From NCBI GenBank assembly GCA_963995525.1, contig OZ023214.1:49852578-49916577 (forward strand): a stretch of DNA of 64,000 bases. Reading direction: 5' to 3'. A program made the position numbers and the translations under genes. This stretch comes from Escarpia spicata. Its lineage: Eukaryota; Annelida; Polychaeta; Sabellida; Siboglinidae. This document shows, in pieces, positions 29,101 to 59,934 of the stretch. Position 1 is the first letter of the stretch. The number at the start of each line of letters is the position of its first letter. A model generated the notes under the pieces. It was given only the letters and a program-made list of their open reading frames with translations. It made no database searches and was not told where the DNA came from.

Positions 29101-29663
29101 ATGAGTAGTGAAATGCGTACGAACGCCGGTGATATAAAGACTGAACAGGTTCAAGTTCAACCAGTTATCGCGAGCATGGCTGCGCTGTCGACATCGACCG
29201 TTGGCGTTGCCCCAGTTCACATAACTACTGCACCCTCGGCGACCACTCCATACGCAGCTACACCATTCAACCGCACGTCGAATTCAGCAACAACCATCTC
29301 AACAACAAATAACCACTGTGAGAACAATGTAACGGCAACGGCCCGTGCTCGGGGCAAATGTTCAGACTCCGTGCCCACGGGGGCGTGGCGTTCTGTGTCT
29401 GTGGCTGACAATCACAATGGGGATTGGCACGAAAACAACGTAGTGGCTCAGGTGACCTGGGCCAATGAGTTTGAACACGGGGGTTTTAATGCACATCAAC
29501 ACCGCCGAGAGCATTCGAGTAATAGCATGAGCGAAGTTGAGGAAGAGTTAGCCGACAACATGGAACGCAGTGACGACAATCATGACACAGACACCGCCGA
29601 TAGCAATGGGGACCTAGACGGTGTCGGAGCTTCTCAGAAACGAGCAAATTTTCACAGACAAAG
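29101..29663 (+). CDS. NADK: NADK exon 1
   Basis: Starts at the first ATG of a long frame in good context (ttcaccATGa), [13 protein letters not shown]. Residues 1-100 are rich in Thr, Ser, Ala and Asn; residues about 145-180 are acidic; it ends ANFHRQ plus AG. Its phase (2) fits exon 2, where AG+G makes Arg, giving [10 protein letters not shown], which parallels the basic RTRSL segment before the catalytic domain in other NADKs. Low complexity makes it hard to confirm by homology; an untested alternative first exon is possible. Confidence 0.7.
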
Positions 29664-35600: not shown

Positions 35601-38006
35601 ACCAGCACCATAGATTTACCGGACAGCCAGTTACAAGTCAAATAACAGGTAGCGATACAAAGTCTACTATTTCCAAAGTTCATAAAATATGATCTGTGAG
35701 CGTAAGCAAGTTGTACATCGGCCAAACTGAACGATTTACGATTGTGTGAAATACAGCCTTGATCAACGATGGCTGATGCGCAGTCTGTCCTACCCGTATG
35801 TCAGAGCTAGGTCAATGCACTCAGCGGATGACCCTGTTAACGCAGGCACTAAACTCAGTCGAACACTGACGTACAACTGGCGGCGGAACGACAAGACGCT
35901 GACACACTAACAAAATTGGAACGCGCGCGATTGCTAGCGAACTTCATTTACGTTTGAATTTCCTCAAATAAAAAGTTTGCAATGTTGCACGCATCACTAT
36001 TTAATGTAAATTTTCACTTGTCCACCGGATAACCACATAGAGTCATTTTACTTGTCCCGGACAAACGGACAAGTGCTATTTCGAACGCTGTATATATATA
36101 TATATGTATTCTTAATTGCACCAGAATCGGAAACAATCCAAGGATCACTGTGGATTTAAGATGGACATGGTGATCAGTTTCCAGATAAATTGATAAAATG
36201 ATTTTGCAAAGTTTAAGTTTGTTTAGTTGTGATGATTCACATACAGTGTATATATATATACATCTGATTTCTGTAAATATTAATTTTCTTTTTTTCAATA
36301 TGTAGATTGTTTGCAGTTTGTACAGTTACCTGACAGATAGATAGTGTGTTGCAGAATTTTTTAATTTATACAGTACGTATTGCGTAATAATGGCATAGAA
36401 ACCTCAATCAATTAATGACAAGTGGTGTGTCAGTACATCAGTGCCAAGGGGCATTACACGTGTGAGAGAGGTGCGTAGAAGAATCTAATGTAGCACACAA
36501 CAAAGATGGAAGCTATTACATTTTCCAGTCCTACCCAGCTGAATAGATTACTTGCTTCATTAATTGGTTTTATGGGTCCACTTTGCACCTGTTTGCCTGA
36601 TTTCATGTTTCCACCCTGTAGGTAAACAGTTTGAATGCATTTCAGCTTGAATGGACACATCAGTAGCACGGTCCCACCTTGTGAGTCATACTAACCTTGG
36701 TTAACAGTTGCGGGTTTCAGTCTGGATAAAGTCATGCATACATGTGCCCTTTATGCTACTACAGTCTACTGCTCCAAGGATACGGAGATTCTAACTGAGA
36801 AATACAATGCAGCAGTTTGTGACATTGAGGAACAACGATTCACATACGAGAGAGCACCAACTAAAAATATTCAAAGAACCATGTCGATAAAACATTTAAA
36901 AACTCATTGATACACCAATGAACAGATGAATGGAATAGCCTCACTCAGTCTGTGGTTGAGATTGCGTCTGTGCAGTCTTTTAAGAGGAAATTAGAAAAAT
37001 CACTCAATTAAATTAGCCCAATTAAATTATACTGTACAGTAAGACTATTACATGTAAGACTAGAACATAGCATTGTCTTTTTTCCAAAGTTTATGACTCA
37101 CAGTGACGGGGGCATTTGTAAAAATATTAGTGAGCCTTGGTGATGGAGGCATGATTTATAAACAATTTTTTTTTTTTATAATGTACCCCAATTGTAATAT
37201 TTAGTAAATATACATTAATTAAAAAAACATGCATACATATTACAGTGTACATATTACATGGATGAATATTATTTTGTATAGATATGAATGCATTACACTT
37301 TATTCGGCAAGAGTTGAAAGTTAATGATGGTCGATAATATGGTGTTTGTGGCAACAAACGCTGTTCACGGTACTCGACAAAAGCTTATAAACAATGTCAA
37401 GGCAGGCAAGAGGTAGACAAGGCACAAGGGTATTAATTAAACTGTTCTCAGTGTCCAGTCATCAATGTAAGATGTGATTTAAATAACTCCATTCAGGCCA
37501 TTGACATTGTTTTGTTTGTTGTCCGCGCGGCCGTTGTCTGTGTTCGGGCGCAGAGTGGAGCTAACCGGAGCGCTATTTGGGCCTCAAAATGCGCTAAGCC
37601 TAAAATGCAATATTTTTTATAGCGTACGGTAAATATGCCTGGGATAATGTGAAATGATTGAATTATCGCAACAACGTGTCAAATTTAGGCAAAACCTTAG
37701 TTAATAACAGCAAAATTGAGGTGGGTCCGGATTCTACACAAGTGCCCCAAAATGTTCTCAGATTTCTCAGACAAGTTTTTGTATGCGTCGTTTGGGCACA
37801 TGCGGCAAAAAAGTATGCCGCTTTCCAGCGTACAATGCCTCATTGACTCGTTTCCACGCTCAAATGGAATCCCTGCAGTTGCAGTGATTATCTTACAGTG
37901 ATCGACAGATGCAGTGATTCAGTCATCCAGACAAGGTTTCAACCAAAGCTGTCAACTGTTCCTCATTTTTTTATATAATCTTAATACTAGAATACAAATA
38001 AATATA

Positions 38007-38088
<82 letters not shown>

Positions 38089-41000
38089 CACAAATGTTTA
38101 TATATATAACAAAACATTCAAACTGTCTAGAGCTATTAGCATATATCGCGGAGACATACACCTTACTCTGAAATACATTGAAATGAAGTTGGCGGTTTCC
38201 CACGCCCTTGACTGTAAAGTGGGACCAGGTAGATCTGATTCAGTGAACTTCCTGCTGGTAATTATCACCTGTGGGTGCTTCCTGGTAATGGAAAGTGGAA
38301 CCTCGCTTCAGCAAGATTGTCATCCGGAGCAAAAAACAGATGGAAAATTTGTAAGGAAGCTTTTGTTGTATCGAGAATCCAACGTGATGCTATCTGTATG
38401 TTACCCACATAATATACAACATATTATTATGTAGCAAGATGTTTAAACACCCTGATTGACAGTTGAGCTGTGAATCTGTCTCTGTGATTGACAGTTGCAG
38501 TGATCTCATCCTGATTGACAGTTGGAGTGATCTCATCCTGATTGATAGTTGCAGTGATTCACTCAGTGACATAGCATGACTTGTGAGATTTTACTCCAAT
38601 CAGGCCACATAGGAGTGGTTTATCAGTAGAGATTTCTTTCTCTAGAGATAGAGTTAGTAAATCAACTACTGTACGGGCTACACATTTGCCCCCTGTGTGT
38701 GATATTATGTATTATATATCACTTATCCGTGTCTGCAGCTGAGCTAATGTTTTGAAATAACAAAGAAATTTGTTGATGGTCACAGAGAGCTCTTTAGTTT
38801 ATTGAAACATGTTGTGGTCAGAATTTAATGCATTTAGTTAAATAAACATGTTTTGTTATAATAAACTGAATAAATTATTTTTAAAATGTATAGAAATCCA
38901 AAGGTAAAATCTTGTATTATTAATCTCAAGATTAGACTGTTATGGAATGTGACCTTTCGTTGGACTTGCTCCTCTTTGACTATCCCTGTTGCTGGATGGT
39001 GATGGTAGCATCCAGAACATTATCAGCCATGTGAGGTGAGCCTACCAAGTTCACTGTACGATTGATGGAACTTGCACCTGCTTTGAGAGCGGGGAGCTGA
39101 GGTAAATCTTGTTATAGGCAGTAAAAGTCTGCAGAACGTTGGGTATTTCTAGTCCTTTCTATTGCATGGCCGAGTCAATGATAGGATTAAACATTCTTTG
39201 CAGTTCTAATCATGATAATGCCTAGCAGCACTACCATGTGTTCCTTGAAATGGAAATGCACGTCGTTCTGTTGTTGACAAATTAATTTGCTAGCATATTC
39301 ATTCACCTTATACCTATAAGTAACTGAATGGTTATGAAATCTATATTTTCTAGCTTAAACTATTGTGTGAAGTTTTTCTTGGAATTGTCAAGTTCTGAAG
39401 CTTCTTACGACAACATGTTAATCATATAGTCGAAGTGCATCCTTAATTTGGTTTAGGTGCATGTGTACGTAAAATTGAGTTGGATTTTACATAGAACAGG
39501 TTATTTGGTAGGTAATAAAATTACCGGTGCTACACATTGATCTCGGTGTTTGAGAAAACTACCACAATACTGTGTTAACTATTCCCATAAACCCCAAAAA
39601 ATTATTGATATAATTAATGGCAATATTAACATAATTGTTGACATTTACCAATTTGTACAGTGTGTATGAAAGGGAGGGGGGGGTAAGGCCTGCATTTAAA
39701 TTATAAAAGTGGGAATTGCATAACCATAATGATTGTAAATTATATACAGGCTGTAAATGTTTGTAAACAAATCCAGCCTGCATGTTAGAAATAAATTTAC
39801 ATGTCCTTGAAATCGAATAATTTATTATTAAACTTCATCAGTATTGCATAAGGTAATTCCTTGTTCCGTAATTCAACTATGAAAAATGGGGTGTACTATT
39901 GCATTTTCAGTACTTGTTTATAAAACATTATGCATCATACAGACATACACTATGAAATGATCAATCTTTACTGATGTATGTAGGTTGCAACATGTCTTTT
40001 TATACTGGCAGTGCTAGTTTTACAATTTCAACAAACTGCTTCCTTGTAGACGTGTCTGTGTATGAAATATGCCAATAAAAAATTGTAAGAAAATGAAACT
40101 GTTAAACAGTTAGAGAGATGTGTAGTTGTTGTGCCCGGCACTGCCAGCCTGGGGCGACTGTGAAGTTATGGGCATCACTTGATGTAGGCCGCACTCAGAG
40201 TAATGGTGGCAACGTGACACGTTTGTCACCTTCTGTAAACAGGCACTCCTTCTAGGACAGCTCAGGTAGGAAACGTCCTAACTCTAGGTCACTACTCGGT
40301 AATGTACAGGCAAGTTTATCAACAAGACATTGTTATGAAATTGTAGTTTTGTGTTTGGATGTAGTAATGCAATCATGCGTGTGAGTGATGCTGTTTAAGC
40401 TGTTATCACAGTGATGTCTTGGCTAAGTATATCTTATAATATGTTTACTCATAACAATGATAGTTTTGGGCTCATTCTGACAAGTAACGTAGTTTTTGTT
40501 TAGCAATTTTGGCTAACTGGTTGTTTTTTATTAGCAGTTATGACTTTTGCCAAGCAACAAAATGGATGCCAAACATGTGTAGCTGTCAGATATTCCGTCA
40601 CACCGTATTTTTGTTGAAATGTCTGACTCCAAATGTTTATCTATGACAAAAACATAGAACAAAGTTGTTTAAGTTAAAACTGCAGATTGATTTGATTTAT
40701 GCCACTGTTGTAATGTAATTTGCACATAAACAATTTTGGTAGGCAAAACTTGACGGAGTTCATGTGCATAAATTACAAGTGGTTATGATTAGGACTAAGC
40801 AGATAGTGCAACACAATCCTACAGAGTGATAGTTAATAAACAAATTTAGGTGATTGTTTTCCTGGTTAGTATTGGTTAGACCGGACACTAAGCAACAACT
40901 TTCTTAGTTCTAAATCATTTGCCAAAGAGAGGTGACGGTTTCGCAAAGTCTTTGTAGCAGATGTTTTACCAGAATTACATAACTTTAAGCAGTTGTTTGC

Positions 41001-44000
41001 AATGCTACTATTACTTATTTTTTAGGGGATTAGCTCTATTTAATGCTTTCTCAATTTGTATTCAGATCGTAAGATCTGGTGCAAATGTAAATCAAGCGCC
41101 CAGACCCTTCTTGAATACAATATTTATTCAAAGAATTCAATTAATAACAACCAGAACCAAAGACGATCTCACTTATAGAAACATGTAAATTTGCAATCTT
41201 GAGCTTGTTACACACGGCACCTCTGGGCCCTACCTGAACCAAGGGTCTGTCATCCTGTTACACTTACTGGCCAAAAGCCACGAGTCCCATCCTCCTCCCC
41301 TATTTATCCCTTTTTCCTTGGGCGGGAAACCTTCATCACATGACTCATTTGAATTCCCTGCCATGCCCTCTGTTGGGAATTCATCAGTGAATTCATCAGT
41401 GCTGCCCTCTTGTGGGAATGCAGTCAACCACATCACAGCCCTACCATACACTTACAGATCCTGGAAGTCTGGTGTCCGAGACGCAAACATCTAGGAGGAG
41501 TACCATAACAACCATTCAACTATGATATGCTGGCTTTATTGTAGTTAGATTGAGCTGTATGTGTGTGGTCCTAGTCAGGTGGGAAAATAATTCTAATTCT
41601 GAACTATTCATGTGTCATTTAAAACCATAGGATACCTGATCAAATCTCATATTTGTGTATAATATGGATATCATTTTGTTGAGTGTATAATGTAGATTAA
41701 TACTTTCTGTTTCTATAAGCTGTATCGTCTTTGTGTAACAGTCATGATAAAAACACCTCAATTACTGTTGACGTCACATTCTCATACACCTTATCATTTA
41801 TTTGGAGTATCTATATCTGATCTCATGACAGATATTTAATAATTTCAGCCAAATCAGAATTATTATCAGGTAAAAACACATGTTCACTGATCTATAGGTA
41901 ACATCCTCGTGCGCCAGGGGTCGCTGCTGCTGATTATGTCAGTGCCAGCCAGCAGTACCCCCTGGCTGATCGCTTTGCGAAACTCTGAATTTAAGCTCGG
42001 CCTATGAAATCGCTAAATAGATCAGTGAATCTCGGCAGGTCAGGTGGTCATAATAAAACTAATTTCAAACTCGTGTTACATGCAATGTTTAGGAAGTAGA
42101 AGCAATTATTCGAATACACAATACCAATCAGCTGCTCGTGCTAATGGGCGAACGGGTCATTATATATTGGGATTCCCAGAAGTCGTTTATCCGTCTTCAA
42201 ATTGGGCAGGTATTTGCGCTGTTCTCACGGGTGATGCAGTCGCGACTGGCGAAGTCAATTACTAGTTTGACTCGGCTAACTTCCACACTTCGCGGGATCA
42301 GCCAGGGCTAGTTTTGCCTGGCAAACAGCCCTGGCTTGCGAGGATGATAGGTAACGGTAGTCTGGTTTCTAAATTTTTATGGGTATTTTAAAGAGAGATC
42401 TAAAAAGGGTAGGGGTGAACAGCCAAGGGTGGGAAAGAATGACAATGTTTTGAGGTAGTGATGACTTGATAAGTGGGTGAAACAAATTAAGTGATGTGGA
42501 GGTTTTGCTTTCTGACCCCGAGAAGGGATTAAGGGGTTATATGATTATATTATTAATGTTTTACAAATGTATACATGTTCATCATCTTTTCTCTTTGAAG
42601 ACATTGGATCTCACTGTTTGGTCTAAACTGAGCACAATTTTAGATTATAATTATAGAAATTGGTATAAATAAAAACTTTCTGAGCACAGCCTGAGGATAA
42701 CTGGCAAGAAAAAGTATGGGCAGTTGGCAATCTCTCGAAGGCAACGATTATTGTTGTAAATTGAGATTAATAGATTTGACAACACAAGAACCATGTGCGT
42801 CAGAGTTTCATAAACATTCCTTTTTGCTAGAGTGATTTCCTTCAATAGTCACACCAGCCCTTGAGGTGATATAACCGCATTGAAAAGATCAGATGTTGAA
42901 AGGAACGCATGTATGCACATTTGACGTCACTGACCAAAAACAGTTAAATCATCATCAGTGCAGAGGGTTGACATATGCACATATGTTGTCAAATTACACA
43001 TGCACATCGCCTAAAAACTTGTCTGCGGTTGTGCAAATTTTTTGATGTCTAATGTGGCATTATAACATTTATATTAAAAACAAGATTCACCTTTTTCATT
43101 TTTCATAGAAATCATGTCGCACTTTTGTTGAACTTTGCAATTATAAATAATTGTAAGTAGAAATAACTTTTAAGTTGAAGGGACAACGTCTTGGTAAGTG
43201 ATGTTAGTTTGTTGAAATGTTAGAAGTTTTTATTTTGCAAGCGTGGGAAGTGACATTATGGAGAAGAAGTCATATATAAGCGGCCGCAGTCGAGAGTGGG
43301 TCATTATGACATAGAGGGAGGGCAAGTCTGTAGAGACAATATTTTCTCGGTGAACATCAGTGACTGGGAGTGCGTCTCTAGAACTACACTGTTGGCAAGT
43401 AAATTGTTGAACACTAGGTGGTTGGAATATTTTAGTGTCATTGTTGCACCTTGCAGTTTGTAATTATTAACTTTGTGTTCATGTTATTGTGTCACCTATG
43501 TTGAAAATCGTGTCATTTTTAATGTAGTAACATATATATATATATATACAAACATTTAAAAATACAATTTGATAAATTTTATCATTTACATTATCGAATA
43601 TGTCACCTGAAATATATCATGTTTACATTGTGTGTTGAACTGCATTTATAAGTTACAGATAAATGTAAAGTTATAATATATTATATATAATTTGGTTCAT
43701 TTAAACATATTTGGTTGGTTAGAATATATATAATTAAATTTATACTATTTACTGAGATGTTCGCAATCATGATCCTGCTGTATGCAGGTCTTTAGAGTAA
43801 GTTATGTGACTGTATTAAAAAAAGCCTTGTCATATGAATGGTCTCAACTCTCAAGTTTGTGTTAAGATATTACGTTCCCATCCTCACTTAGCTAGATTTA
43901 TATATCCTGGTACACATCTGTATTGAAACTTAACATTAATTAAGGGATAATACTTGTAGGTCCACTTCATTTAGTCAACAGGTGAACTGCGTGATGTCAT

Positions 44001-47000
44001 TGATGTCACAAACTTGCAGTGGACATTGATTTACTCTGCCCACCCACAACATCAACCATATTGCTGTTGAAGTGTGGGTCAAGAGGTCACGGCAATCAGT
44101 ACGATGACATGAATATCTTTATTAAAATTATTTGTGTCATGTAATTGTGTTGCCAAGTACACCTTTACACCCACTTGACTGACGTTTATTTGAAACAAGT
44201 ATCAAACAAATCAAAGCGATGTGAATGTCATATGAAGTAGATACTTGTAGCAGAAATAATTGTGTTTGTGGATCTAAAAGGGAATTCATCACAGCAAGTG
44301 CAGTGGTTGGATATTATGAATGTTATTCTTGTGTACGACGATATTGCAGGGTAACATTTATCAAGTGACATAATTTGCATACAGGACAAAATATTGGGTC
44401 ACCATTTGCGGCTGTGAAAGCACAAGATGCCTTATTAGCCATAGTTGACCGGTCAAGGATTCGTGGTTCATTTGACTGGACGAAGATGAATTGACTGTAC
44501 TGTGGATGATAGCAATTAATTTTCATGTAAATATTGACAAATTTGTAAGACTACTGCTTCGTTCATTGTGGGTATGTTCACGTAGATGCGTGCATGTTTA
44601 TGTTTTTACACGCAAGTGTCATGTTCAGATGCGAGTGTATGTATCAGTGTCCTACTGGGTTTGTTTGTTGTCGTGCCAGGCATGCCAAGTCCATGTACGG
44701 CGTGCGACCAAACTGCAACTTTGGTCCGAAAGCAAGCATCATGAAGACACATAAGGCAGTCATGTGAGTAGATCCATTCACACCACTCCTGTCCATATTA
44801 TGAAGACACACAAGACAATCATGCGAGTAGATCCATTCACACTATTCTGTGCATATCATGAAGACACATAAGACAGTCATGTGAGTAGATCCATTCACAC
44901 CACTCTTTCCTTATCATGAAGACACACATGACAGTCATGTGAGTAGATCCATTCACTCCACTATGTCCATATCATGAAGACACATAAGACAGGCATGTGA
45001 GTAGATCCATCCACACATCACTTCTAATAACAAGCCAAATCATGCAACCTATTGCATTGCACTCAGTTTCAAAACAAAATTGCACATTTTTGTCATATAT
45101 ATATATAATCACAGTTCTGATTACTGCAAAAACAAATCAACTGAGTAGAGGTGATTGAAAGTTTGCACACAAGTTTTAATTTAGTAGGAAGCTACCAATC
45201 CCTCATTTGAGGACTGTCAATAAAATAAGTTCCTGACTCACGTATTTATTTCCAATCAGAACGTGACAACAGGTAACCATATTGTTGAGCATTCTTCATG
45301 ATGGTTCATTTTTATGCAAACAATTTCTTTTTGATATACTCAATGCATATTGGATATCAAAACGAAATTGTTTGCACAGGAACGAGATTGTATAACACAT
45401 GTCCCCTGGTTGCTACAGAACCATTGTTTGCACAGGTAACCATGTTCAGGAATGAGGTTGTGTAACACATGTTCCCCCGGTTCCTACAGAACCATCCAGG
45501 ACCCCGCATGTCAGCGCCTCAACTGGTACAAGCCTCCTCTCACAGTGCTTGTCATCAAGAAGATCTTTGATGAGAACATCCGACAGTCCTACATCGACCT
45601 CATCATCTGGCTCATCAAGGTATGAAGACTTGGTCTTGCAGCCATGATACAGGGGACTACAGGTTTAGGGTTAGATGGTGGATGGGTCAGTGGCTGGTGG
45701 GGAAGACATGTCAGAGTTGCTTGCAACGGTTCATAGTCACCCGTTTGAGACTACTGATTATGGGCACATGCACTCAGAAAAACTGAAATTATTTCAGTTT
45801 TATTTACCATAGACATTTAATTAGGTTTCCATTCTGTAGCATAGTAATTTATTAACATTTCATACGCAGCATGTAACTGCTAGTTATTAATGAAAAATAT
45901 TGTTTTAAATTAATTGTTGAGAATTATTTAAGTATTTTATTTTTGTCAAACTTTATAAATTAATATTTAGGTAATAAATTGATGTATATGTCACATAATT
46001 GGCTAGTTACACTAGGAATTATTTCTTCAGATGTAGTGAAAATTTGATTTGAATCGGATCAAAAATTATTTGTTTATTTGTATTCATGCAACCCGAGTAT
46101 ATCACATGATTCACTCACAGCCCATTCTCTTGATTTAATAGGATTCAATAACAGGCACATATTTGCATTAATCTGGCCTTGAGAGTGTTAATGGTGATCT
46201 TATATACTGAAAGCTGTTAACACCAGGACACGCCACCAGGACATCCGGTATGTCATGAGAAATAGTGTCCTCGGTGATATGTTGGAGACGTTTGCACTTT
46301 TAAAAAGTTGCTTAATTTGAATAATGATTTCTGTTTGTTTAGTGATTGATTTTCCTTAAGAACTAATTATCTTAGTGGAATGTTCCTCGCGTGTGTTGTG
46401 ATGTTTTAACGGTTGGTGTTTACTTTGTGGCTCTATACTCTACTTCATAGATTGTAATTCATATATTAATGGTATGGTGCTTGCCTTTTGACAACTATGT
46501 GCCTAAATATAGTTTTCATGAATTAATGATTTGGTGTATTTAAAACACAACCAATCTTTTTGGAAGTTGAGACCCATTTACCTAATGTGTATAGAAAGGG
46601 TTACATAGATAACATCACAGAGAAATGATCTCTATCAGCAAGTAAGTGTTTTTCTTACACAATATTGACATTCAGTGTGAGCTTGCCATTTATTTTGGTG
46701 AATCATTTCAACCAAATCAGGAAGATTTGGTTAGTCATAGATTGCTCTGGCCACATATCAGGAAGTCGTTGTGTAGCCAGTCATTCCACTGCCTTTCTTT
46801 GTGGCGCCCTTCGCTTCAGGTGACTGTGCAAGAAAGAATGTTGACGATATCTAATAATACCAGGTTCAATTGTGTATAAATTTATATCATTATATGACTT
46901 CTTACAAATACTAGGACCAATTATTAAGCCATATGAATACCAGGGTTAAAGAAGACAATTAAGTTTTAATGTGAAGTACCTTGAATATATGGTTAATGGA

Positions 47001-50000
47001 ACTATAAGTGTAATTATATTATTATTATTATTGCTAGTATTATTATGAGTAACAGCACATTTTAAATGACCGCAATCAGTGATGTCATATCAGGCATAAG
47101 GGCCTGCTTATTGCCCTCTCTGTGGCATATATACAAGTATATATTAGCTAATTAGTTATAGCCATAATAATACAATAATAATACATTTTTATTTCCACAA
47201 TGGTATTATAATACAAACACGATTTTATGGTTTAAGTGTATTCACAATTATTGTAGAAAAGGAGCAGAAGTTTAACACTTATGAAGAGCTTTCCCTTTCA
47301 AAACAGTAATCACAGAATATATTAACAGTTTGATTTATAATAACGCAGTAGTGTGAACATAGTAAAGTAGTATTTTTTGGTTTCTTGCAACCACTTTGCA
47401 AAATAAAACAGTATCAGTTCATTAATCCATCATTTATCCTTGTTATATATATTCAATTTTGCTTAAATATAATAATTATTTTTGATAAATTTTATAAATA
47501 ATTTGTTTACTGCTCGATTGTTTTTGAAGCAGTATCTTTGATTATATTTTATTAGTGTGCAACTCATTCAAATGAAGCCGCTGCAGTTGAATGTACAAGT
47601 GATCACTCTTTTTATAGATGTCATGGAGCACTATAAACTGTATGAATCTTTTGTGTGCGTACGTTTGAATGTCAGATTATCTAATTCTGAGTGGGTTCTT
47701 TGTTTAAACACGTCATGCACATATTAGGTTAACATCCTCTTTTAGCAAGCTGTCAGTTATGCATCAATTTAAATGAATATATTTCACCTTAGGTAAATTG
47801 CACAATTTGCTCCATTTATTAAATTGTTAAATCTAATTCTAAATTCAACCAATTTTATTTCAAAATTTTACTGGTTTCTAAATCCAATCAATTTCTAATA
47901 ACAACCAATTTCTAGCTTCAACCAGGTACTATATTTAACCAGTCAGCCATGGATAACCAACCATTGGGATAAAACCTTTGAAGTTGAACTTGATCAAGTT
48001 AAGTTAATTACAAGGGTCTTGCGAATTAGATGACATGGTCACTTTTGGAGAGAAAAATACTGTGTGAGATGCCTGGCTAGTTTCCAGTCCATGGTCTCCA
48101 ACCAGCTCATGGACCACAGAGAGAAAGATTTTGTCACGCAGTCAATGTAGACTACCCACTGCCCCAGATGTGCACCTGGGTTTGTTAAGCTGTGTCCACT
48201 TCATCCACAGTTCTATTCTCTCTTTGATGTCCACTACAGGTCATTCAACGGTCATCCATGGTCTAGGTTATATGTTGTCAACAGATGGTTGTGGAGAAAG
48301 CATTCTGGAATGGCCGGATTGATAGACAGTTATCTTGGGTCATCTTGCTATATTTCTATGCAACAAAGCTCTGTATAATGTAGAGTCTAAAAATGTATAA
48401 TGCATTTACATTCTGCACTTGAGCTGAGAGGTGCATCAAATTGAAAGGAGTTACGCAATCTCAAGATCTGTATGTTAACTGATGAATGAAGAGCTGAATG
48501 AATGGGAGCTATCTAAGAAGGGCTAAAATTATAACTGTTCAGGTGACTGCGAAATGGTATTACATTTCCTGCTGCCCTTACACAGGAAGTGGATTTCAAA
48601 GAGTTGCTGCAGCAATGGAGAAAATCCTTGTTCTGATGTTTGCTTCAACTCAACTAGATGATTGAAACTGTCTGAGACATGTGATTGTAGGTAGTTGACC
48701 GTGGCTGGATGCCTGGATATGTCTTCCCTTTTTCTTATAATGATTGAAAGGTATAATACTTTTTGTTCACTTAGAAACTTGATGCTGAAAAGTTAGAAGG
48801 TCAATAGTAGCTTGACATGCCAAAATCTCTTTCATTATGTTATGTGAAAATGTCCTGTAATAGTGACATTGCAGTTTGAAGTTTAACTTTCCAGTTAACC
48901 TGTTTCCAAATGCATTCACCTCAGTCATCTAACCCTTGGACAATTTAATTGAATGCTTTCTGCCTCACTTCATAAACCAGTACCTTGTGTACACATGGTT
49001 GCACAGCTGAATACTTCCTAGTTCAAGACATGTAAAACACTGCACACCTGCTCATTATGGGCTAAATTAGGACAATTACTTGAGTTTGTGCCTTCATGCA
49101 GACATTGGTAATTGACATTTTTCAGGTTGGGTTATTTTCTTATAGATCTAACTAGTGTGTTGAGGAAGGGAGGTGGTGCAAGTCATCATCATGATGATCA
49201 AAGCTCTTATCTTTCCAGGAGAAACAGATGCTGGTGTTTATTGAGTCAAAGGTTCTGCATGACCCACAACTTCAGCGGGATCCATGCTTTGCCGAGGTCA
49301 CCAGCAAACTGTGCACGTTCAAGGAAGGTTTGTCTCTGCTCAGTTCAGACATCTCAGATGGTAGCAACATTATGGTTGTGCATACAGATATTATAGATAT
49401 GAAAATAGTTATAGTAGATAGTTATTTGTAGTGAGTTTTAATAATATTATAATTGATATGTATTTTACTAAAAGTGTTCACATTTTTAACCCATGTAATT
49501 TTTTTTAAATATAAAATGGATAAAAAATTATTATATCAGGAATGCATATAATAATTTTATATTGTACATCTTTCTTCCTCAGTGAGTGTGTGGGTATGTG
49601 CATGTGTATGTGTGTGCGCTCGTGCGAGCGTGTGTGCATGCATGCATATATATGCTTGAGTGCGTGAAAGCATTTGTATTACGTGTGTAAATGTATATAA
49701 TCGTCAAAGGTTGTAAATGTAAAACTCTGAAAACTGGGTTACATTATATGTATTGCCAATCATAGATATATATATATATATGTATATAAATCCATATATG
49801 ATGATGGTAGATTATAGCATGAGTGTTATAAGATGTCGTATGTTTCAGGTGAGGATGACCTGACAGACAAGATTGACCTGATTGTATGTCTGGGGGGAGA
49901 TGGAACACTCATCTATGCGTCCTCACTATTCCAGGTGAGACACACGTCTCGTAGTTGCTGCGGCTCCATGTCACATTTACATAATGGCTGGAGTCTTAGA

Positions 50001-53000
50001 GTATTATATTTATAGGTGAACATCAATGTTGTCTTTAAGTGAACAAGGATATTGTCTGTGGTTTGTGGAGATATCTATGTGAGAAATATCTTGTCAGGGG
50101 GATATTTTAACAACATGAATCATGTCTGTAAGGATCGTTGTGTGAACATGACTCTTGTTTGTGGTGATTTCTGTATGAATGTCTGTGGGATAATTATGTG
50201 AATATTATTGGTGGTGATCTCTTTGTGAACATAGCGATGTATATGTAAACATGTCGTTGTTTGCAGCAAAGTGTGCCCCCAGTGATGGCGTTCCATCTTG
50301 GCTCTCTAGGATTCCTCTCTCCATTTGAGTTTACGAATGCGACAGATAAAGTCACACAAGTACTAGAAGGTTGGTTTCAAGTGCAATTTATCAGCTCACC
50401 ATTACATGAGTTGATAGATAACCTTTTACTAACGTGTTGTAAGAACTTATATACACGGAATATAGAGTGCTATCAAATATACCTCAGATGCCAGCCAATA
50501 TATGCTAAGGGCACGGGAAATACCAAAGGCTAGTAAGCCAGCACAGCATCAAAATTATTATCATGTGTGAAATTTCCCCCGTGCAGGTTTAACTCGAAAT
50601 GTCTTGTGTAAGAGTCCAGCAAGGTTCAGTTTGTATTTGGATTCCTACCGGTTTTTATATAATTTTTTATAATCATTGTAACAAATTTTGTCAGTGGTTA
50701 GGCAGTTAGTGATGATCAATCTGATACGATGATGGCTTCTTGTATATACTTGTATAGAATTCATTTTAGCAGAAAGACAATTCAGTACAGTATTTACAGT
50801 TGTCATTATCCTCAAGCTTAGCACCTCACTAAAATTGTACTTTCAAATTAAGATGGTCGCTATCATATTTTATAATCAACATTTCTATTCAACCAGCTTT
50901 TGCCACAATTGATAAAATGAGCTGTGTAGTGTTAGTCTTTATTGTGATCAATGTATAAGCAGTGTGTGAGATTGACAACGAGTGATGTTTGTGACATGTT
51001 CTTGGTGATTCCAGGCAACGTGCCACTGACTCTGCGTACGAGACTCAAGTGCGTCATCTGCAAGAAAGGCAGCAAGCAGCAGGACAGCAGCTGCTCCATC
51101 AAACACGTGGAGAGCAAGCAGCACATTCTGGTAGGTCATAACCACAGTCGTCTTACTTTCAATCTCTCGCTATTGCAATCTGTTCTGCATTTACCATGAG
51201 CAGCTTTTGTGGACAGGCATTTATATACTGGCACCAATGTCACCAACCAGGACGGGCATTTAAAGGTCTCTTCTCAATGAGATTTGTCAACTGTCTCCAT
51301 TTATACCAATTTCATAACAAATTGAACCTATCTAGCATCCACTGCACCATAAGGTGAGTAGCAGACATGTTTTAGATTTCCTAATGTACTCCACCTTGTG
51401 GCTCACAACATTTGTTTCCAGTTTGTCCTTTGCAGCTCATAAAAAAACATCCACTTCCTTTCCTCTTATTAACTGTTCTGGTGGAACTCTTGCCCCAGTG
51501 GGGTGGGGATGAAAGCACCCTCTGGCTATTGCACCCCCATACTCTATCCTAGGGTGGTACATGCTAGCCATCTCCAACTAAGTAATTTGGGTTTTTGAAA
51601 TCAAACAAACTAATAAATTGTTTAAAGTCATGATGGACCGAGGACTTTCATTACTGTATATTTGTATGTCAGGTGATGGATGAGGTCATAGAGGACCGAG
51701 GACCATCTCTCTGTATATATTTGTGTGTCAGGTGATGAATGAAGTCATAGAGGACAGAGGACCATCTCTCTGTATATATTTGTGTGTCAGGTGATGAATG
51801 AAGTCATAGAGGACAGAGGACCATCTCTCTGTATATATTTGTATGTCAGGTGATGGATGAGGTCATAGAGGACCGAGGACCATCTCTCTGTATATATTTG
51901 TGTGTCAGGTGATGAATGAAGTCATAGAGGACAGAGGACCATCTCTCTGTATATATTTGTGTGTCAGGTGATGAATGAAGTCATAGAGGACCGAGGACCA
52001 TCTCTATGTATATATTTGTGTGTCAGGTGATGAATGAAGTCATAGAGGACAGAGGACCATCTCTCTGTATATATTTGTGTGTCAGGTGATGAATGAAGTC
52101 ATAGAGGACAGAGGACCATCTCTCTGTATATATTTGTGTGTCAGGTGATGAATGAAGTCATAGAGGACAGAGGACCATCTCTCTGTATATATTTGTGTAT
52201 CAGGTGATGAATGAAGTCATAGAGGACAGAGGACCATCTCTGTATATATTTGTGTGTCAGGTGATGAATGAAGTCATAGAGGACAGAGGACCATCTCTCT
52301 GTATATATTTGTGTGTCAGGTGATGAATGAAGTCATAGAGGACAGAGGACCATCTCTCTGTATATATGTGTGTGTCAGGTGATGAATGAAGTCATAGAGG
52401 ACAGAGGACCATCTCTCTGTATATATTTGTGTGTCAGGTGATGAATGAAGTCACAGAGGACCGAGGACCATCTCTCTGTATATATTTGTGTGTCAGGTGA
52501 TGAATGAAGTCATAGAGGACAGAGGACCATCTCTCTGTATATATTTGTGTGTCAGGTTATGAATGAAGTCATAGAGGACAGAGGACCATCTCTCTGTATA
52601 TATTTGTGTGTCAGGTGATGAATGAAGTCATAGAGGACCATCTCTCTGTATATATTTGTGTGTCAGGTGATGAATGAAGTCATAGAGGACAGAGGACCAT
52701 CTCTCTGTATATATTTGTGTGTCAGGTGATGAATGAAGTCATAGAGGACCATCTCTCTGTATATATTTGTGTGTCAGGTGATGAATGAAGTCATAGAGGA
52801 CCGAGGACCATCTCTCTGTATATATTTGTGTGTCAGGTGATGAATGAAGTCATAGAGGACAGAGGACCATCTCTATGTATATATTTGTGTGTCAGGTGAT
52901 GAATGAAGTCATAGAGGACAGAGGACCATCTCTCTGTATATATTTGTGTGTCAGGTGATGAATGAAGTCATAAAGGACAGAGGACCATCTCTCTGTATAT

Positions 53001-56000
53001 AGTTGTGTGTCAAGTGATGAATGAAGTCATAGAGGACAGAGGACCATCTCTCTATATATATTTGTGTGTCAGGTGATGAATGAAGTCATAGAGGACAGAG
53101 GACCATCTCTCTGTATATATTTGTGTGTCAGGTGATGAATTAAGTCATAGAGGACAGAGGACCATTTCTCTGTATATATTTGTGTGTCAGGTGATGAATG
53201 AAGTCATAGAGGACAGAGGACCATCTCTCTGTATATATTTGTGTGTCAAGTGATGAATGAAGTCATTGAGGACCATCTCTCTATACATATTTGTGTGTCA
53301 GGTGATGAATGAAGTCATCGAGAACAGAGAACCATCTCTCTGTATATATTTGTGTGTCAGGTGATGAATGAAGTCATAGAGGATCAAGGATCATCTCTCA
53401 TGTATATATTTGTATATCAGGTGATGAATGAAGTCATAGTGGACCGAGGACCATCTCTGTATATATTTGTATATCAGGTGATGAATGAAGTCGTGGTGGA
53501 CCGGGGGCCATCTCCATACCTGTGTAATCTTGACCTGTACATAGAGCACAAGTACATCACGTCAGTTCAGGGCGATGGTAAGTTAGAGTTTCGCATGGAA
53601 AATCAGTTTGTGATATTAAAAGTTCTATTGAGCACCACATAGTGTAATCAGTGCTGCTCTAAATGCACAATCAATCATGTCGGAATCTTAGCAACTTATA
53701 TTTCATCATCAAAAACATATCGACAGGTTTCATTGTGTTGATCTTTCTCTAGAAGTTTAATCAAATTTAACCTAATAACGATTGCACTGATGTTTTGGCA
53801 AAACATAGTGACATATGAATTTGTATTTTCCTTTAGAAATCCTTGAAAATCAACACTTGTTAATGACATTTCTTTGGTGTCATTCTAAAGTTAGGTATGG
53901 GTTGTGGTATTTTGCAGGGTTGATCATCTCAACACCAACAGGTAGTACAGCCTACGCCGCAGCGGCTGGGGCGTCAATGGTTCACCCCAGTGTTCCAGCC
54001 ATCATCATCGCCCCAATATGTGCACATTCCCTCTCATTCCGGCCAATCATTGTACCCGCAGGGGTCGAAATAAAGGTACGTTGTGGGGCTATTGACTGTT
54101 TCATACAAAAATGTTTGTTGGAAACCATTGAGATAAATACTTTTTGTTCAGTGCAGTTAGATGGGGATTTGATGTTGTATCATGGATGCTGATTGGCTAT
54201 AGTTTACTGTGTGATATGTTATTGGATTTTTAGTCCTTTGGGCCGAAGGTCCAATGGTGTAATGCCATCACTCCATGTCCACCGTCAGCCGTGCTCTGCC
54301 ATATCTCAGAAACTGTTCAGCAACTTTTTCTCTAATTTTGCACAGACGTATCTTAGGGTACTGCCACTATACACAAGAAATCTGTATTTGATTGAATCAT
54401 TCTAAGGGCACCTCAGGGCCCCTCAAAATGCTAAATTGTCCTACTTTTTCCCTACTGCTGTAAGTCTCCTGCACTGATCTCTATTTATAACTAGATAGTG
54501 GTCTTTGCCCTATCTCTGATCACTGGGGTGGCTGACTGGAGAGATTATGCTGAAACCATGTGTATTGGACTAGCCTAGGCTCACTGCCTGCCATTGTCCC
54601 AGTGTCAAACAGAATCCTCCTTGTGGGCTGTAACTATAATGTGTAATGGGAATCCCTACTGCACTGGCAGAACCTGAGAAACTTTAAAACAGCAAGACAT
54701 AAATATCAATGCAATATAAAGATATTATCTAGGATTAAAATAACTTATGTATAAAATAACTTAGGTATACTCAAAAAGGGTAAAGCATATTTAGTCAAAA
54801 TGTTAAGGAATATTATTAAGATGTTTTACTATACATGTGTAAGCTATTACTTCACTCCAATTCAGTCAGTATTATGTCATTCATTGCTACTGTTTTAAAG
54901 TCAAAATGCATGCTATGTATATGTACCTTGTGAACAAATAAAGTTTGATCATAGTTCACCTCTTTCTTCTTTCCATTCTGGCAGAGGGTGGTAGGGGCAA
55001 AATGAGAATAGAAAATGTGTGCTGAGATTGCAGCTCACCAACTCTCCTGCAAGGTTTCTACAACCACTGGAAATCGGCCTAAATAGCAGAATATCAGGAT
55101 AAAATTCTACAGTATTTTTTTACATTAACTAATATATACAATCTTCACGAAATGGTCTACTCGAATATTTTATTTCTACGTGTACCTTCACTGGCATGCA
55201 TATAGTCTCCACTAAACATGTCAACATTTTCCTGCCATCATAATCCTAATGATCTGTAACTATGATTCACCAAAAACCATTTCATTAATAATTACAACTC
55301 ACAATATAGTCCAAAGGACTTCAGGGCCTCTTGGCCCATTTTTCATAAAATGAAACAGTACTTGCTTGTAATAGTCACTAAATGTCTCGGCACGTAAGTT
55401 GCTTCTATATTCAGTTATGTTAACATTGACAAGGTAGCTAAGTTACCTGCCTGAATCTTTTTTCTCTCAGTAATCATGTTATGCTGTTGGCACATGACAG
55501 CCGTTCTAAGAATATCGTGAGAAGATTGTAGCCGGTGTCCCTGTTGATCTCATATTACAGTGGAACAGACATTGAATATCCCTCAACCTTACATGTGATA
55601 CCTATCAGGGAAACTGACCATGATCTTCTGAGAACATGGACTGGGGACATACCACAAACCATACAACACCGTTAGATCCACAGTGACGAATCGCAGGGAC
55701 AAAACCCCCCAAGAACAACATGGGCAGGGTGATATATGAAATAGCATGTCCATACTTGTCACATGGGTGAATCTAGCAGGACCGGCTACAATCTTCCCAC
55801 AATATTCTTAGAACTGTTGTCATGTGACAATCACCAACAATGTCACATGACTACCAAGAATGGCACAGTACAACTCTGACGATAACACAGGGTGTCAAAA
55901 ACTCTGTTGAACTAAAGAATGATTCAGACAGGTAATTTAACCAACTTGTCAATATTCACCAAATGTTTTACTTTATTTGAATAAAAAATTCACTTGTTAG

Positions 56001-57379
56001 AATGCTTACATCGTGGTCTCGTTACAATATTAGAATGCTGTTTAACTAGCTAATTCAACCACTTTATCAACAACAATGCCTATTGGTTGTGCTGGAATTT
56101 ATCCTGATGTCTTGATTGCCTGTTATGTGTTTGATGTGTGCCATGTTGATTGGTTGTTATATGCTGGGTTTTGATTGGCTGTTTCACAGATTGTAGTGTC
56201 ACCAGACGCCCGCAACAATGCCTGGGTGTCCTTTGATGGCCGCAGACGACAGGAGATCTTCAAAGGGGACACGTGAGTTAGCACCATTAATAAATTACAG
56301 TTCAGTGATAGAAGCTATTTTTGTTTTTAAAAGATCGAATCATAACAGGCAGTGCTTTCTGTGAGAATAGAAGATATATCCAGTTTTAGGTATTTTGAAT
56401 CTTCGCATTGTTCACAAATGTTTTAATTTGCACAGATTTAACAATCTGAAGAAACAGCCCCTTGAAACACAAACATATCTATGACACTTAGACTAATAGA
56501 TGTTAGATTGAATTGCTAAAATAATTGTCAAAAATGTTTGTTTTGCTTCCATTGTTTATTCTTTATGCAAGGTAGTATAATGGCCTTCAGATGAATACTG
56601 TACAAATACTACCAGTTATCACGTTTAAGGCTGTCTTATTCAAAACTTAATGTCCTATTTACACAAGACCTTCATGATATTCTTGTTGTAAGGCATCTTA
56701 CTGATTCGTAATGTTGTTCGACCTTGGAGTTGGTGAGGTTTAGTGAATCAGGGGCCTGTTTCACTAACATTCTTGTGGGCTCACAGCCTCATTTTGCTCT
56801 TTAAACTGGTTTTCACTCCTCGACAGTGTCATCTTGTAATACTTAAATCTGTCAACACTACAGCACGCCGCGGGGACATTATTGCCAAAATGTTGGTAGT
56901 ATGGCGCTTTTGCATTTTAACAGTTCCTTAACAATGACTTATGTTTTAATAATGGATTTTCCTTATGAGTTCATCACTTTAGTGGAATACCTACCTGCCC
57001 ACATATTGTCAGCCAGCGGCCAGAAATGTATACATCTCAAGAGCATAAATGTTGTAGTCATCCAATATATACATGTCCCTGTTAATAGCTATTTTTCAAC
57101 GTGAAAACATACGTAGAAAGTGTATACAATCTCAAAATGACTGGCACTTTGTTCTCCTATGAACAATAAGTAAATTAATGATTGGTCCCTTCTTGCAGAT
57201 TGCGTATCGGCACGTCCATCTACCCTGTTCCGGCCATATGCAACGAGGACCAGATCAGCGACTGGTTTGACAGTCTCGCGCGCTGTCTACACTGGAACGT
57301 ACGCAAACCACAGCTCGGGTTCAACAACTCAGGCTGTCACCTAGACACCATGCAGGAGGATGAAGTGTCACGGATGTGA
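29101..57379 (+). CDS. NADK: NAD kinase, complete eleven-exon gene
   Basis: NAD kinase phosphorylates NAD+ with ATP to make NADP+, usually in the cytosol. Exons: 29101-29663, 44680-44763, 45490-45619, 49219-49327, 49849-49934, 50267-50369, 51015-51130, 53478-53577, 53918-54075, 56190-56272 and 57199-57379. All phases agree and sum to 1713 nt (570 aa). Human NADK is about 446 aa; the excess is in the N-terminus. Hallmarks are [20 protein letters not shown], the GGDGT ATP/NAD motif (about residues 311-315), [30 protein letters not shown] (from about residue 435), [26 protein letters not shown] and LHWNVRKPQ. No key motif is lost. Three of its exon edges have been copied into tandem arrays. Confidence 0.95.
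29850..30336 (-). pseudogene. Inverted, damaged copy of C1orf50 exon 5 plus its SINE
   Basis: The minus strand matches 18509-19077 almost throughout: SINE body, intron end, acceptor ttctgcag, exon 5 and the first 3' UTR bases. The copy lacks about a dozen bases of the CPHTF region, gains an in-frame TAA where Glu-Ser stands in the parent, and has lost the SINE B box. It lies antisense in NADK intron 1, 190 bases after exon 1. The retained intron sequence means a DNA-level duplication, not retroposition. Confidence 0.85.
31245..31325 (+). mobile_element. tRNA-like pol III promoter segment, left palindrome arm
   Basis: A box tagctcagttgg (31252-31263) and B box ggttcaatcc (31310-31319) are present, but the T-stem and anticodon arm do not pair, so it is a tRNA relic or SINE head rather than a tRNA gene. 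Confidence 0.5.
34515..34600 (-). mobile_element. tRNA-like pol III promoter segment, right palindrome arm
   Basis: Inverted counterpart of 31245-31325: B box ggttcaatcc on the minus strand at 34533-34524 and A box tagctcagtgg near 34591-34581. Confidence 0.5.
36920..37010 (+). pseudogene. LINE reverse transcriptase C-terminal relic
   Basis: The plus strand reads [19 protein letters not shown] then KRKLEKSLN and a stop, the W.SLP..VV.A.SV.SFK..L pattern at the C-terminus of many animal non-LTR retrotransposons. Nothing of the upstream domains remains. Confidence 0.55.
38013..38086. repeat. (CA)n microsatellite
   Basis: About 37 uninterrupted CA dinucleotides; the open frames here are poly-Thr-His or poly-Val-Cys artefacts. 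Confidence 0.98.
38445..38575. repeat. Short minisatellite, ~29-bp units
   Basis: Four copies of a cctgattgacagttg(g/c)agtg-atctcat unit in NADK intron 1. Confidence 0.8.
41902..42346. mobile_element. 445-bp MITE with 8-bp target duplication
   Basis: Terminal inverted repeats catcctcgtgcgccaggg (left) and ccctggcttgcgaggatg (right) match at most positions, and the 8-bp direct repeat ataggtaa abuts both ends (41894-41901 and 42347-42354). An 8-bp duplication with CA/TG ends fits hAT- or P-type transposition. No transposase is inside. Confidence 0.8.
43272..43281 (+). promoter_or_regulatory. Possible internal TATA promoter in NADK intron 1
   Basis: catatataag directly before a GC-rich gcggccgc, 1.4 kb upstream of exon 2. 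It could start a short NADK transcript lacking exon 1, but no first exon with a matching donor was clear. Confidence 0.2.
44680..44763 (+). CDS. NADK: NADK exon 2
   Basis: Acceptor cgtgccag, donor gtgagt. Encodes [20 protein letters not shown] then MKTHKAV; the NFGPKA core is typical of animal NADKs just before the IQDP segment. Begins and ends in split codons (1 and 2 bases). Its last ~30 bases and donor are repeated downstream. Confidence 0.88.
44733..45020 (+). repeat. NADK: Tandem array of the NADK exon 2 edge and its 5' splice site
   Basis: Five units of 58-59 bp follow the pattern catgaagacacataagacag, tcat, gtgagtagatccattcacac plus about 14 bases. The first contains the true exon end. 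Donor-like sites lie at 44764 (real), 44823 (GC instead of GT), 44881, 44939 and 44997. Confidence 0.92.
45380..45489 (+). repeat. NADK: 71-bp duplication of the NADK exon 3 acceptor
   Basis: ggaacgagattgtataacac ... gctacag aaccat (decoy start 45419) precedes ggaatgaggttgtgtaacac ... cctacag aaccat (real start 45490). Translation from the decoy reaches a stop after 12 codons. Confidence 0.85.
45490..45619 (+). CDS. NADK: NADK exon 3
   Basis: Encodes [20 protein letters not shown] then [20 protein letters not shown]. Matches the start of the catalytic region (first Rossmann strand). Ends in phase 0, donor gtatga. Confidence 0.95.
45620..49218 (+). other. NADK: NADK intron 3
   Basis: AT-rich, 3.6 kb. 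A stretch near 46225-46390 resembles 56830-57000 in NADK intron 10 (aacac.a...cacgcc, ttttccttaagaact, cttagtggaat), a probable old dispersed repeat. No other element was recognised. Confidence 0.5.
49219..49327 (+). CDS. NADK: NADK exon 4
   Basis: Acceptor ctttccag; encodes [20 protein letters not shown] to KLCTFKE plus one base. Donor gtttgt is weak but phase and homology fix it. Confidence 0.93.
49328..49848 (+). other. NADK: NADK intron 4
   Basis: Contains a TG/CG alternating purine-pyrimidine stretch (49585-49665) and a TA microsatellite near 49768; otherwise AT-rich. Confidence 0.6.
49849..49934 (+). CDS. NADK: NADK exon 5 (GGDGT motif)
   Basis: Encodes [20 protein letters not shown] then [13 protein letters not shown] is the nucleotide-binding motif that defines NAD kinases and related diacylglycerol kinase-fold enzymes. 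Confidence 0.97.
49935..50266 (+). other. NADK: NADK intron 5
   Basis: Degenerate tandem words of the tgtgaacat and tgtttgtggtgat type run through this short intron up to the acceptor. Confidence 0.5.
50267..50369 (+). CDS. NADK: NADK exon 6
   Basis: Encodes [20 protein letters not shown] then [14 protein letters not shown] plus one base; highly conserved block. Donor gttggt. Confidence 0.96.
50370..51014 (+). other. NADK: NADK intron 6
   Basis: AT-rich; nothing recognised. A 90-codon frame continues from exon 6 into this intron and is read-through only. Confidence 0.6.
51015..51130 (+). CDS. NADK: NADK exon 7
   Basis: Encodes [20 protein letters not shown], a linker [14 protein letters not shown] and QHIL, phase 0 at the end, donor gtaggt. 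The linker is the variable region of animal NADKs. Confidence 0.93.
51131..51625 (+). other. NADK: NADK intron 7, non-repetitive part
   Basis: Unique sequence before the acceptor array; no element recognised. Confidence 0.5.
51626..53477 (+). repeat. NADK: 59-bp array of the NADK exon 8 acceptor and first codons
   Basis: A partial unit and 31 units precede the real exon. Each has an acceptor-like tttgtgtgtcag followed by gtgatgaatgaagtcatag, aggacagaggaccatctctc and a tgtatata spacer. Unit starts include 51673, 51732, 52261, 52667, 53014, 53302, 53361 and 53421. Most units are 59 bp, three are 52 and two are 57; the unit beginning at 53361 is 60. I count 29 of 31 with an intact AG; 53014 and 53250 have AA. 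Each encodes [12 protein letters not shown], the start of exon 8. Confidence 0.95.
53478..53577 (+). CDS. NADK: NADK exon 8
   Basis: Encodes [20 protein letters not shown] then [13 protein letters not shown] plus one base; matches the conserved NEVVIDRG block. It differs from the array units upstream (gtcgtggtggaccgggggcc), so selection has kept the coding copy distinct. Confidence 0.95.
53578..53917 (+). other. NADK: NADK intron 8
   Basis: Short AT-rich intron; nothing recognised. Confidence 0.6.
53918..54075 (+). CDS. NADK: NADK exon 9 (TGSTAY motif)
   Basis: Encodes [40 protein letters not shown] and [12 protein letters not shown]; contains the second diagnostic NADK motif and the substrate-binding loop. 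Donor gtacgt. Confidence 0.97.
54232..55343. mobile_element. Dispersed repeat, copy B
   Basis: Same element as 20418-22431, without the LINE. It carries about 165 bases (55018-55183) absent from copy A. Ends agtcctttgg and, inverted, agtccaaaggact (55308-55320). Confidence 0.75.
55491..55826. mobile_element. ~336-bp MITE with ~50-bp inverted ends
   Basis: Left end cacatgacagccgttctaag then aatatcgtgagaagattgta; the inverse of the right end reads cacatgacaacagttctaag then aatattgtgggaagattgta. No coding capacity. Confidence 0.75.
56190..56272 (+). CDS. NADK: NADK exon 10
   Basis: Encodes [20 protein letters not shown] then QEIFKGD plus two bases; conserved AWVSFDGR block. Confidence 0.96.
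56273..57198 (+). other. NADK: NADK intron 10
   Basis: AT-rich; part of it (56830-57000) resembles 46225-46390 in intron 3. Confidence 0.5.
57199..57379 (+). CDS. NADK: NADK exon 11 (terminal)
   Basis: Encodes [40 protein letters not shown] and a 24-residue variable tail to TGA (57377-57379). Matches the conserved WFESLAQCLHWN end of animal NADKs. Confidence 0.96.
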
Positions 57380-58830: not shown

Positions 58831-58926
58831 AATTACCAGTCCCCAGGTGCGGCCAGCAGAATAATTACCAGTCCCCAGGTGCGGCCAGTGGAATAATTAC
58901 CAGTCCCCAGGTCCGGCCAGTGGAAT
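58831..58926. repeat. 32-bp repeat, three units
   Basis: Three near-identical copies of aattaccagtccccaggtgc + ggccagcagaat. Confidence 0.9.
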
Positions 58927-59829
58927 AACAAACATATGGCACACAGATATAATTTTCATATTTTGCAATGTTTTATCTTAAAATTGCATATTTTGTGAAA
59001 CAATGTTTATACAGAGTTGAGGAAAGTGATATATTGTTTACTGGCAATTTGTATTTAAAATAGGGATGCTCTCGTAATGCAACTAAGTTACTTTCTATGT
59101 TATATAGGCACTGAATTGTGGTATTTGGCCTTTCCGCTTGCTAAATGGTACTGTGAGCAGGCAAAATTAACCCACACTGTGAATGATGATGACGTGCACG
59201 CCAATACAGTTAACTTTAATTGTGTCAAGAAGGAAATTCATAATCGAGTTAGATGTCTGTTCACTTATTGTTTTTCTCACAGAAATGCATTGTTTATCAG
59301 AATGAATAATATAGGATATTGTTAAGATATTAAGATATTAGCCACAGTTCTTGTTCAACCATTCACAGAATTGATTGATTTGGCATATCATGAATAATTG
59401 TGAATCTCGAAAGGTATATTTGAATTGTCATCAAGGAAAACTGATATATTAATTCCTTAGACCAGATGTCTTTTTCACTACTGTCCTTCGTTATCAGCAC
59501 ATGCATGCGCATACCAGTCACACATATACATACAACATAGTTAAAAATAAAATAATTAAATATTTGTTAGTTAAATAAATACGACTATAATATAATAGTA
59601 TTAAATAAATGTGGGACCTCCTTTACATGTTGAATGTACATTAGCAAGTATTTATTTTTATTATATAATCTCATGTGCGCAGATGTTTGTTACTTTATAT
59701 ATTGATGCAATAACCAAGTGATGAATGAATGTTTAGTTTGGTGTAAGTATTTGGTTCCAGATGTAGTATGTATTTTAATACAGAATATAAATTTATTGCA
59801 AGAGGGTAAAATGTGCCAATCAACAATTT

Positions 59830-59835
59830 AATAAA
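59830..59835 (+). terminator. NADK: Possible NADK poly(A) signal
   Basis: AATAAA followed by GT- and T-rich sequence. Other AATAAA words occur near 59546, so the site is provisional. Confidence 0.35.
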
Positions 59836-59934
59836 TTGGTGTCAAATACATCTGCTGGTTCTTTCTCTTTGTACATTTTATACACAGGAAAATATTTCCT
59901 TTCAAGCGTTTATATAGAAAACACCTGTGTATGA

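Follow-up and report, generated by a model that had tools for sequence, protein, structure and literature searches.

A mirage-type array of 31 acceptor copies before exon 8 of an NAD kinase gene in Escarpia spicata

Minisatellite-like tandem duplications spanning an intron-exon boundary have been described in amphioxus under the name "mirages": in the available text of PMC3087553 for the globin genes BflGb6 and BflGb9 and for Adh3, and also for TnC and PGBD5 (PMC3902484). At the exon-intron boundaries of human duplicated genes, variable tandem repeats, on average about four copies of 30 bp, are reported for recent paralogues in the accessible part of PMC2812944. Here, an array of repeated 3' splice sites in intron 7 of a gene for NAD kinase (NADK) was analysed. 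It lies in a window of 64,000 nucleotides of Escarpia spicata DNA (forward strand of contig OZ023214.1, positions 49,852,578 to 49,916,577, assembly GCA_963995525.1), and positions below are counted from the first nucleotide of this window. By its repeat structure, the array belongs to the known kind called mirages. It probably is a tolerated passenger and not a regulatory device, with exon definition picking the last acceptor and nonsense-mediated decay (NMD) clearing the errors. The claim of the initial annotation that no such case had been described was wrong, since the amphioxus mirages in Adh3, globin, TnC and PGBD5 precede this one. What is new here is the number of copies (31), the presence of two mirages in one gene, an enzyme gene as the host, AG|GT at 29 of the 31 junctions and two decoys that are in frame.

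Like the amphioxus mirages, the NADK duplications are minisatellite-like, span intron-exon boundaries and occur in both acceptor and donor versions. In both systems the splice dinucleotides are kept in many but not all units (in NADK, AG in 29/31 and, in the donor mirage, GT in 4/5), and units evolve in concert while those at the boundaries diverge, although in NADK the internal units 17, 19 and 4 also differ. Unlike the amphioxus cases, the NADK array has 31 copies, compared with 6 and 3 in the BflGb6 haplotypes given in the available text of PMC3087553; in addition, the host is an NADK enzyme gene, it carries two mirages and it groups with an annelid. Mirages are further characterized by lengths that vary between alleles or in soma and by leaving regular splicing undisturbed; for the NADK array, both are predictions. 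The known mirages come from cephalochordates, and those of NADK probably lie outside this group; an annelid mirage was not found in the literature among the matches listed.

With the human boundary repeats, the NADK array shares minisatellite expansion at an exon-intron boundary, which that report connects with cryptic splice sites and with new introns; arrays of whole acceptor modules, as in NADK, are not described for the human repeats in the accessible part of PMC2812944. The earthworm metallothionein gene is likewise an annelid gene with intronic minisatellites, and its exon 4 duplications are not represented in the transcript; unlike the NADK units, its monomers average about 180 bp and lie in intron 1, and no splice-site unit is described in the available portion of PMC12783039. 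The intronic minisatellites near alternative exons of C. elegans, as presented in the available part of PMC4039745, have no bearing on the NADK array.

The acceptor array and the gene that carries it

In the gene model, intron 7 (51131..53477; this and all other NADK features are on the + strand) is 2347 bases long, and the array takes up 1852 of these (79%). Tandem Repeats Finder (TRF) reported a 59-bp unit in 31.9 copies at 51657-53514 with 93% matches. When the array was cut unit by unit, a decayed partial unit was found at its left edge (51626..51671), followed by 31 tandem units, each beginning with GT (51673..53477). Twenty-five units are 59 bp long, three 52 bp, two 57 bp and one 60 bp. 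Upstream of the start of exon 8 at 53478, 31 acceptor copies (decoys) were counted, of which 29 end in AG and two in AA. Decoys 1-11 end just before 51673, 51732, 51791, 51850, 51909, 51968, 52027, 52086, 52145, 52204 and 52261; decoys 12-22 before 52320, 52379, 52438, 52497, 52556, 52615, 52667, 52726, 52778, 52837 and 52896; and decoys 23-31 before 52955, 53014 (AA), 53073, 53132, 53191, 53250 (AA), 53302, 53361 and 53421. A strict pattern caught 29/31 of these copies, and those at 51673 and 51850 were read by eye. The 31 upstream units of about 59 bp and the 29 retained AGs of the initial annotation were thus confirmed.

Each unit holds the last 22 intron bases and the first 37 exon bases around the exon 8 acceptor. 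The unit consensus is identical to this boundary at 31/37 exon bases and 20/22 intron bases, and at only 7/22 of the next bases, which bears out the proposal that the unit is a 3' splice site joined to the first 12 codons of an NADK exon. Chance likeness was rejected because the best ungapped match of these 37 exon bases elsewhere (1-51600 and 53601-64000, both strands) reached 25/37. Only a weak GTCAT at -44 was found as a branch-point candidate in the units, with no clear motif. Rfam at gathering scores gave no match, and the tRNA scan found none. A Pfam search of nine open reading frames gave a match with E <=0.01 for three, two of these being above the cut-off, and none bears on the array.

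NAD kinase is an enzyme that is usually essential. The NADK gene carrying the array is apparently intact, because the coding part (29101..57379) could be modelled as 11 exons and 570 codons with GT-AG introns and no internal stops, and residues 182-553 of the model match PDB chains named NAD kinase (8kgc, 9cr3) with E ~1e-140. Exons 2-11 were mapped by tblastn with five NADK proteins. Exon 1 (29101-29663) was placed by eye and not by tblastn, on the strength of an open frame, a donor and likeness to the N-terminus of one NADK protein (P0002, Logan). Exon numbering starts at the ATG exon, and further 5' untranslated exons are possible. The exons other than exon 1 are exon 2 (44680-44763), exon 3 (45490-45619), exon 4 (49219-49327), exon 5 (49849-49934), exon 6 (50267-50369), exon 7 (51015-51130), exon 8 (53478-53577), exon 9 (53918-54075), exon 10 (56190-56272) and exon 11 (57199-57379).

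For comparison, 192 NADK proteins were drawn from the 7993 and 1095 matches of two protein searches. In these and in a reverse-transcriptase search, the best 120 of 7993 matches (scoring being limited to the 8000 candidates with the most words in common), of 4483 (reverse transcriptase) and of 1095 were listed. No NADK match more than 68% identical, and hence no Branchiostoma-like match, was found among the best 120 of 7993. The motif NExxxDRG is present in 191/192 of the proteins compared; of the three residues that follow NE in it, the second is V in all 191, and the third is I, V or L, likewise in all 191. In an NADK tree of 29 rows, the NADK of the window joined that of the alvinellid Paralvinella and a Logan protein (99/92). 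Placement of this NADK among annelids is therefore likely, but not proved, because the tree holds no amphioxus sequence.

Exon 8 is also peculiar in some of the compared proteins. A predicted NADK of Paralvinella palmiformis (P0243) is without most of exon 8, with NELVVDRG running directly into VIIATTTG, whereas the close Logan protein P0002 keeps this exon whole. Either P0243 comes from a faulty gene model, or a relative splices this exon in an alternative way. An unnamed product of Plutella xylostella (P0001), a predicted NADK, carries its counterpart of the exon 8 segment three times in tandem, with intron-like residues between the copies, and such a triplication occurs in 1/192 of the proteins compared.

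Growth of the array and other boundary duplications in NADK

The array probably began with the tandem duplication of 59 bp across the exon 8 acceptor, which seeded a minisatellite that then grew by slippage or unequal exchange. Units 5-26 have a mean pairwise identity of 95.4%, and 11/31 units equal the consensus; the high uniformity pointed out in the initial annotation was thus upheld, and it fits a recent expansion. The outer units are diverged, unit 1 being 86% and units 28-31 being 85-92% like the consensus. Separate units have peculiarities in common: units 1 and 4 share the GGATGAGG form, and units 17 and 19 share an identical 52-bp form. Copying of blocks of units would produce such a pattern.

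The unit consensus reads VIEDRG and thus has I and E where 191/191 NADK proteins have V and I, V or L; the exon-adjoining unit reads VIVDRG. Since the units carry I and E at conserved NADK positions, it may be concluded that they drifted as non-coding sequence, whereas exon 8 did not. Among the 25 units of 59 bp, change per site was 1.3% for the CAG (a count that omits one of the two AA sites, which heads a 52-bp unit), 2.5% for the intronic part and 1.8% for the exonic part. Special conservation of the decoy AGs was unsupported, as the CAG is not clearly better kept, and there is no sign of selection on the decoys.

A second mirage of NADK, overlooked in the initial annotation, lies across the exon 2 donor (44738..45016), where TRF found a 58-bp unit in 4.8 copies. 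The repeated segment takes in the final 26 bases of exon 2 and the donor AT|GTGAGT, and of the five donor copies, four have GT and one has GC. Splicing from any of the four later copies would extend exon 2 into an immediate stop, and the first copy is therefore expected to be the true donor.

An old, diverged duplication of two copies (45369-45424 and 45443-45495, within 45369..45495) covers the exon 3 acceptor and the first six exon bases. Its local score was 36.5, compared with a maximum of 15.5 in 300 shuffles. Use of its decoy acceptor, before 45419, would give an early stop. When all exon boundaries were scanned with 40-base probes, 3/20 scored at least 18, as did 36/400 random positions in the gene and 7/371 of those outside the two arrays. 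Duplication at all exon boundaries was rejected on this count.

Acceptor choice and the fate of decoy splicing

The true acceptor (ttgtatatcag) has a pyrimidine fraction of 0.56 and an AG-free stretch of 27 bases, and the commonest decoy (18/31) has values of 0.56 and 29 bases. The fraction is 0.56 at 29/31 decoys and 0.50 at the other two. A stronger true acceptor was thus unsupported, both measures being alike. Because the pyrimidine fraction is equal at the true acceptor and most decoys, position rather than strength should decide between them. The exon 8 donor, GATG|gtaagt, lies 100 bases past the true acceptor and pairs with U1 at -9.1 kcal/mol, which makes it the second strongest of the 10 donors, and only the last acceptor copy has this donor 100 bases downstream. 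By exon definition, a nearby and well-matched donor would select the last acceptor, and the array would be removed as ordinary intron. Splicing to 27/29 of the AG decoys would bring a stop 9-117 bases past the junction, ahead of three further exon junctions, and use of these decoys would be silenced by early stops together with NMD.

The other two AG decoys, which precede the exon-adjoining units of 60 and 57 bp (53361..53477), are the only ones that stay in frame and free of stops: 53421 adds 57 bases (19 codons) and 53361 adds 117 bases (39 codons). They might serve as alternative acceptors that give a minor NADK isoform longer by 19 or 39 residues, or unproductive splicing might set the NADK level; we consider this quite improbable. 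It is in its favour that no other of the 29 AG decoys is open, that the resulting exons would be 157 and 217 bases long, and that unit length is a multiple of three in 3/31 units including both of the last ones (chance 0.65%, or 0.66% in 200000 order shuffles), a test that was, however, chosen after seeing the data. The edge units may also be older and merely keep another length, the insert would hit a highly conserved segment of the kinase, and the motif is repeated in only 1/192 of the NADK proteins compared, a moth prediction. The multiple-of-three lengths of the last two units may single out the decoys with the best chance of use, or they may simply reflect how old the edge units are.

The sequence at the junctions would also allow a different fate for misplaced splices. 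The units meet at CAG|GTGATG, and each unit is therefore a GT...AG cassette. Because a splice to a decoy leaves GTGATG at the junction, a second splice could remove the remainder, as in recursive splicing and at the dual-specific sites of human UBC. The array could then correct itself: whichever decoy was used first, splicing onward to a later AG would restore the exact exon 7-exon 8 join. It was found that GT follows 31/31 decoys and that 29/31 junctions read AG|GT, bounding cassettes of about 59 bases; a splice at the wrong copy is thus, in principle, open to re-splicing. Within the array, CAG|GTGATGAA pairs with U1 at -8.2 kcal/mol in a simple duplex model, which is stronger than 7/10 true donors and beats 98.7% of the 1724 GTs, among them the true donors, that NADK has outside the array. 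However, the donor regenerated after exon 7, CTG|GTGATGAA, reaches -5.2 kcal/mol in the same model, is weaker than 10/10 true donors and is matched by 9.9% of the 1724 GTs. Moreover, the GT comes with the conserved start of the exon, where it belongs to a Val codon, and AG|GT hence needs no selection; in the exon 2 mirage, the donor reads AT|GTGAGT and not AG|GT. Self-correction therefore appears unlikely.

The two systems that suggest such re-splicing resemble the NADK array in part. According to the available text of PMC10809524, UBC has tandem AGGT dual sites that delimit its repeat units, one sequence serving as donor or acceptor where units join, and introns of this kind are enriched 8.4-fold in tandem-repeat genes; this favours self-correction. 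The UBC units described there are, however, coding and stochastically spliced, whereas the NADK units are intronic and mostly 59 bp long, hence out of frame, and their use is hypothetical. The ratchet points of recursive splicing, in the available text of PMC8605326, also juxtapose acceptor and donor within an intron, as 29/31 NADK junctions do with AG|GT, but they are sites in long introns, whereas NADK has 31 copies in a 2.3-kb intron and a weak regenerated donor. An extended form, in which the array acts as a self-erasing splice ladder entered at any AG|GT step and walked to the true exon, with the two in-frame steps yielding longer NADK isoforms, is doubtful. If true, it would let the gene carry any copy number and, in mirage-prone lineages, would offer a route for boundary shifts and intron birth.

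Several points weigh against the preferred reading, a tolerated mirage whose last acceptor is picked by exon definition. Splicing is predicted here from genomic sequence (the best 120 of 7993 NADK matches are at most 68% identical). Splice-site strength was judged by simple measures and not by a trained model, the energies coming from the simple duplex model. The edge pattern is not clean, as units 2 and 3 equal the consensus and the internal units 17 and 19 (88%, with a 7-base deletion) and 4 (93%) differ from it. The exon 3 duplication overlaps its exon by 6 bases only and fails the spanning criterion of the boundary scan. In favour of this reading, the only two TRF arrays of NADK with a period above 30 both end on an exon boundary, as happened in 0.4% of 20000 trials of random placement (6.8% and 5.8% for each array singly), but this test is only suggestive because it concerns two arrays and its criterion was chosen after seeing them.

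Copy number, finally, comes from one assembly, and the array could be partly an assembly artefact. An assembly or sequencing artefact that multiplied a small number of true copies is, however, very improbable. Assembling near-identical units is difficult, and an aberrantly assembled mirage was reported in the amphioxus draft (available text of PMC3087553). The NADK units nevertheless hold private variants in order (the 52-, 57- and 60-bp forms, the two AA losses and the differing outermost units), and a second mirage is present in the same gene. An artefact could alter the copy number but not create the unit.

The array offers 31 closely similar 3' splice-site modules, almost alike in acceptor tract and in the exon bases that follow it, that differ mainly in their distance from the exon 8 donor, and it is thus a natural dose series on 3' splice site choice, whether by first AG, exon definition or re-splicing. 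It also shows the amount of splice-signal clutter that an enzyme gene may carry. Since NADK also has a donor mirage, and its host is probably not an amphioxus, minisatellites across exon boundaries may be a wider property of some invertebrate genomes and a possible source of new introns.

Other features of the window

Minisatellites are dense at 1-5109, where units of 41 bp (20.5 copies), 34 bp (51.4 copies) and 50 bp (15.8 copies) were found. Three + frames cross the 50-bp array (4320-5109) as stop-to-stop open reading frames of 291-325 codons. At 10879-11717, a 446-bp unit is present in about two tandem copies, with 77% matches. Downstream of NADK, minisatellites with units of 32, 37-38 and 21 bp were found at 58829-58928 and 60844-62221; they are linked to no placeable exon.

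Retrotransposon-like remains comprise a reverse transcriptase domain at 15717-16325, a second reverse transcriptase fragment, below the Pfam cut-off, at 20784-21290 and a GIY-YIG domain, just above the cut-off, at 17270-17530. Among the matches listed in the reverse-transcriptase search (best 120 of 4483), most were unnamed ENA proteins, and the only organism-named one, from the annelid Ridgeia piscesae, was 55% identical. Similar translated stretches (NNLGIL...) at 22007-22255 and at 54755-54898, the latter in NADK intron 9, are probably copies of an interspersed repeat.

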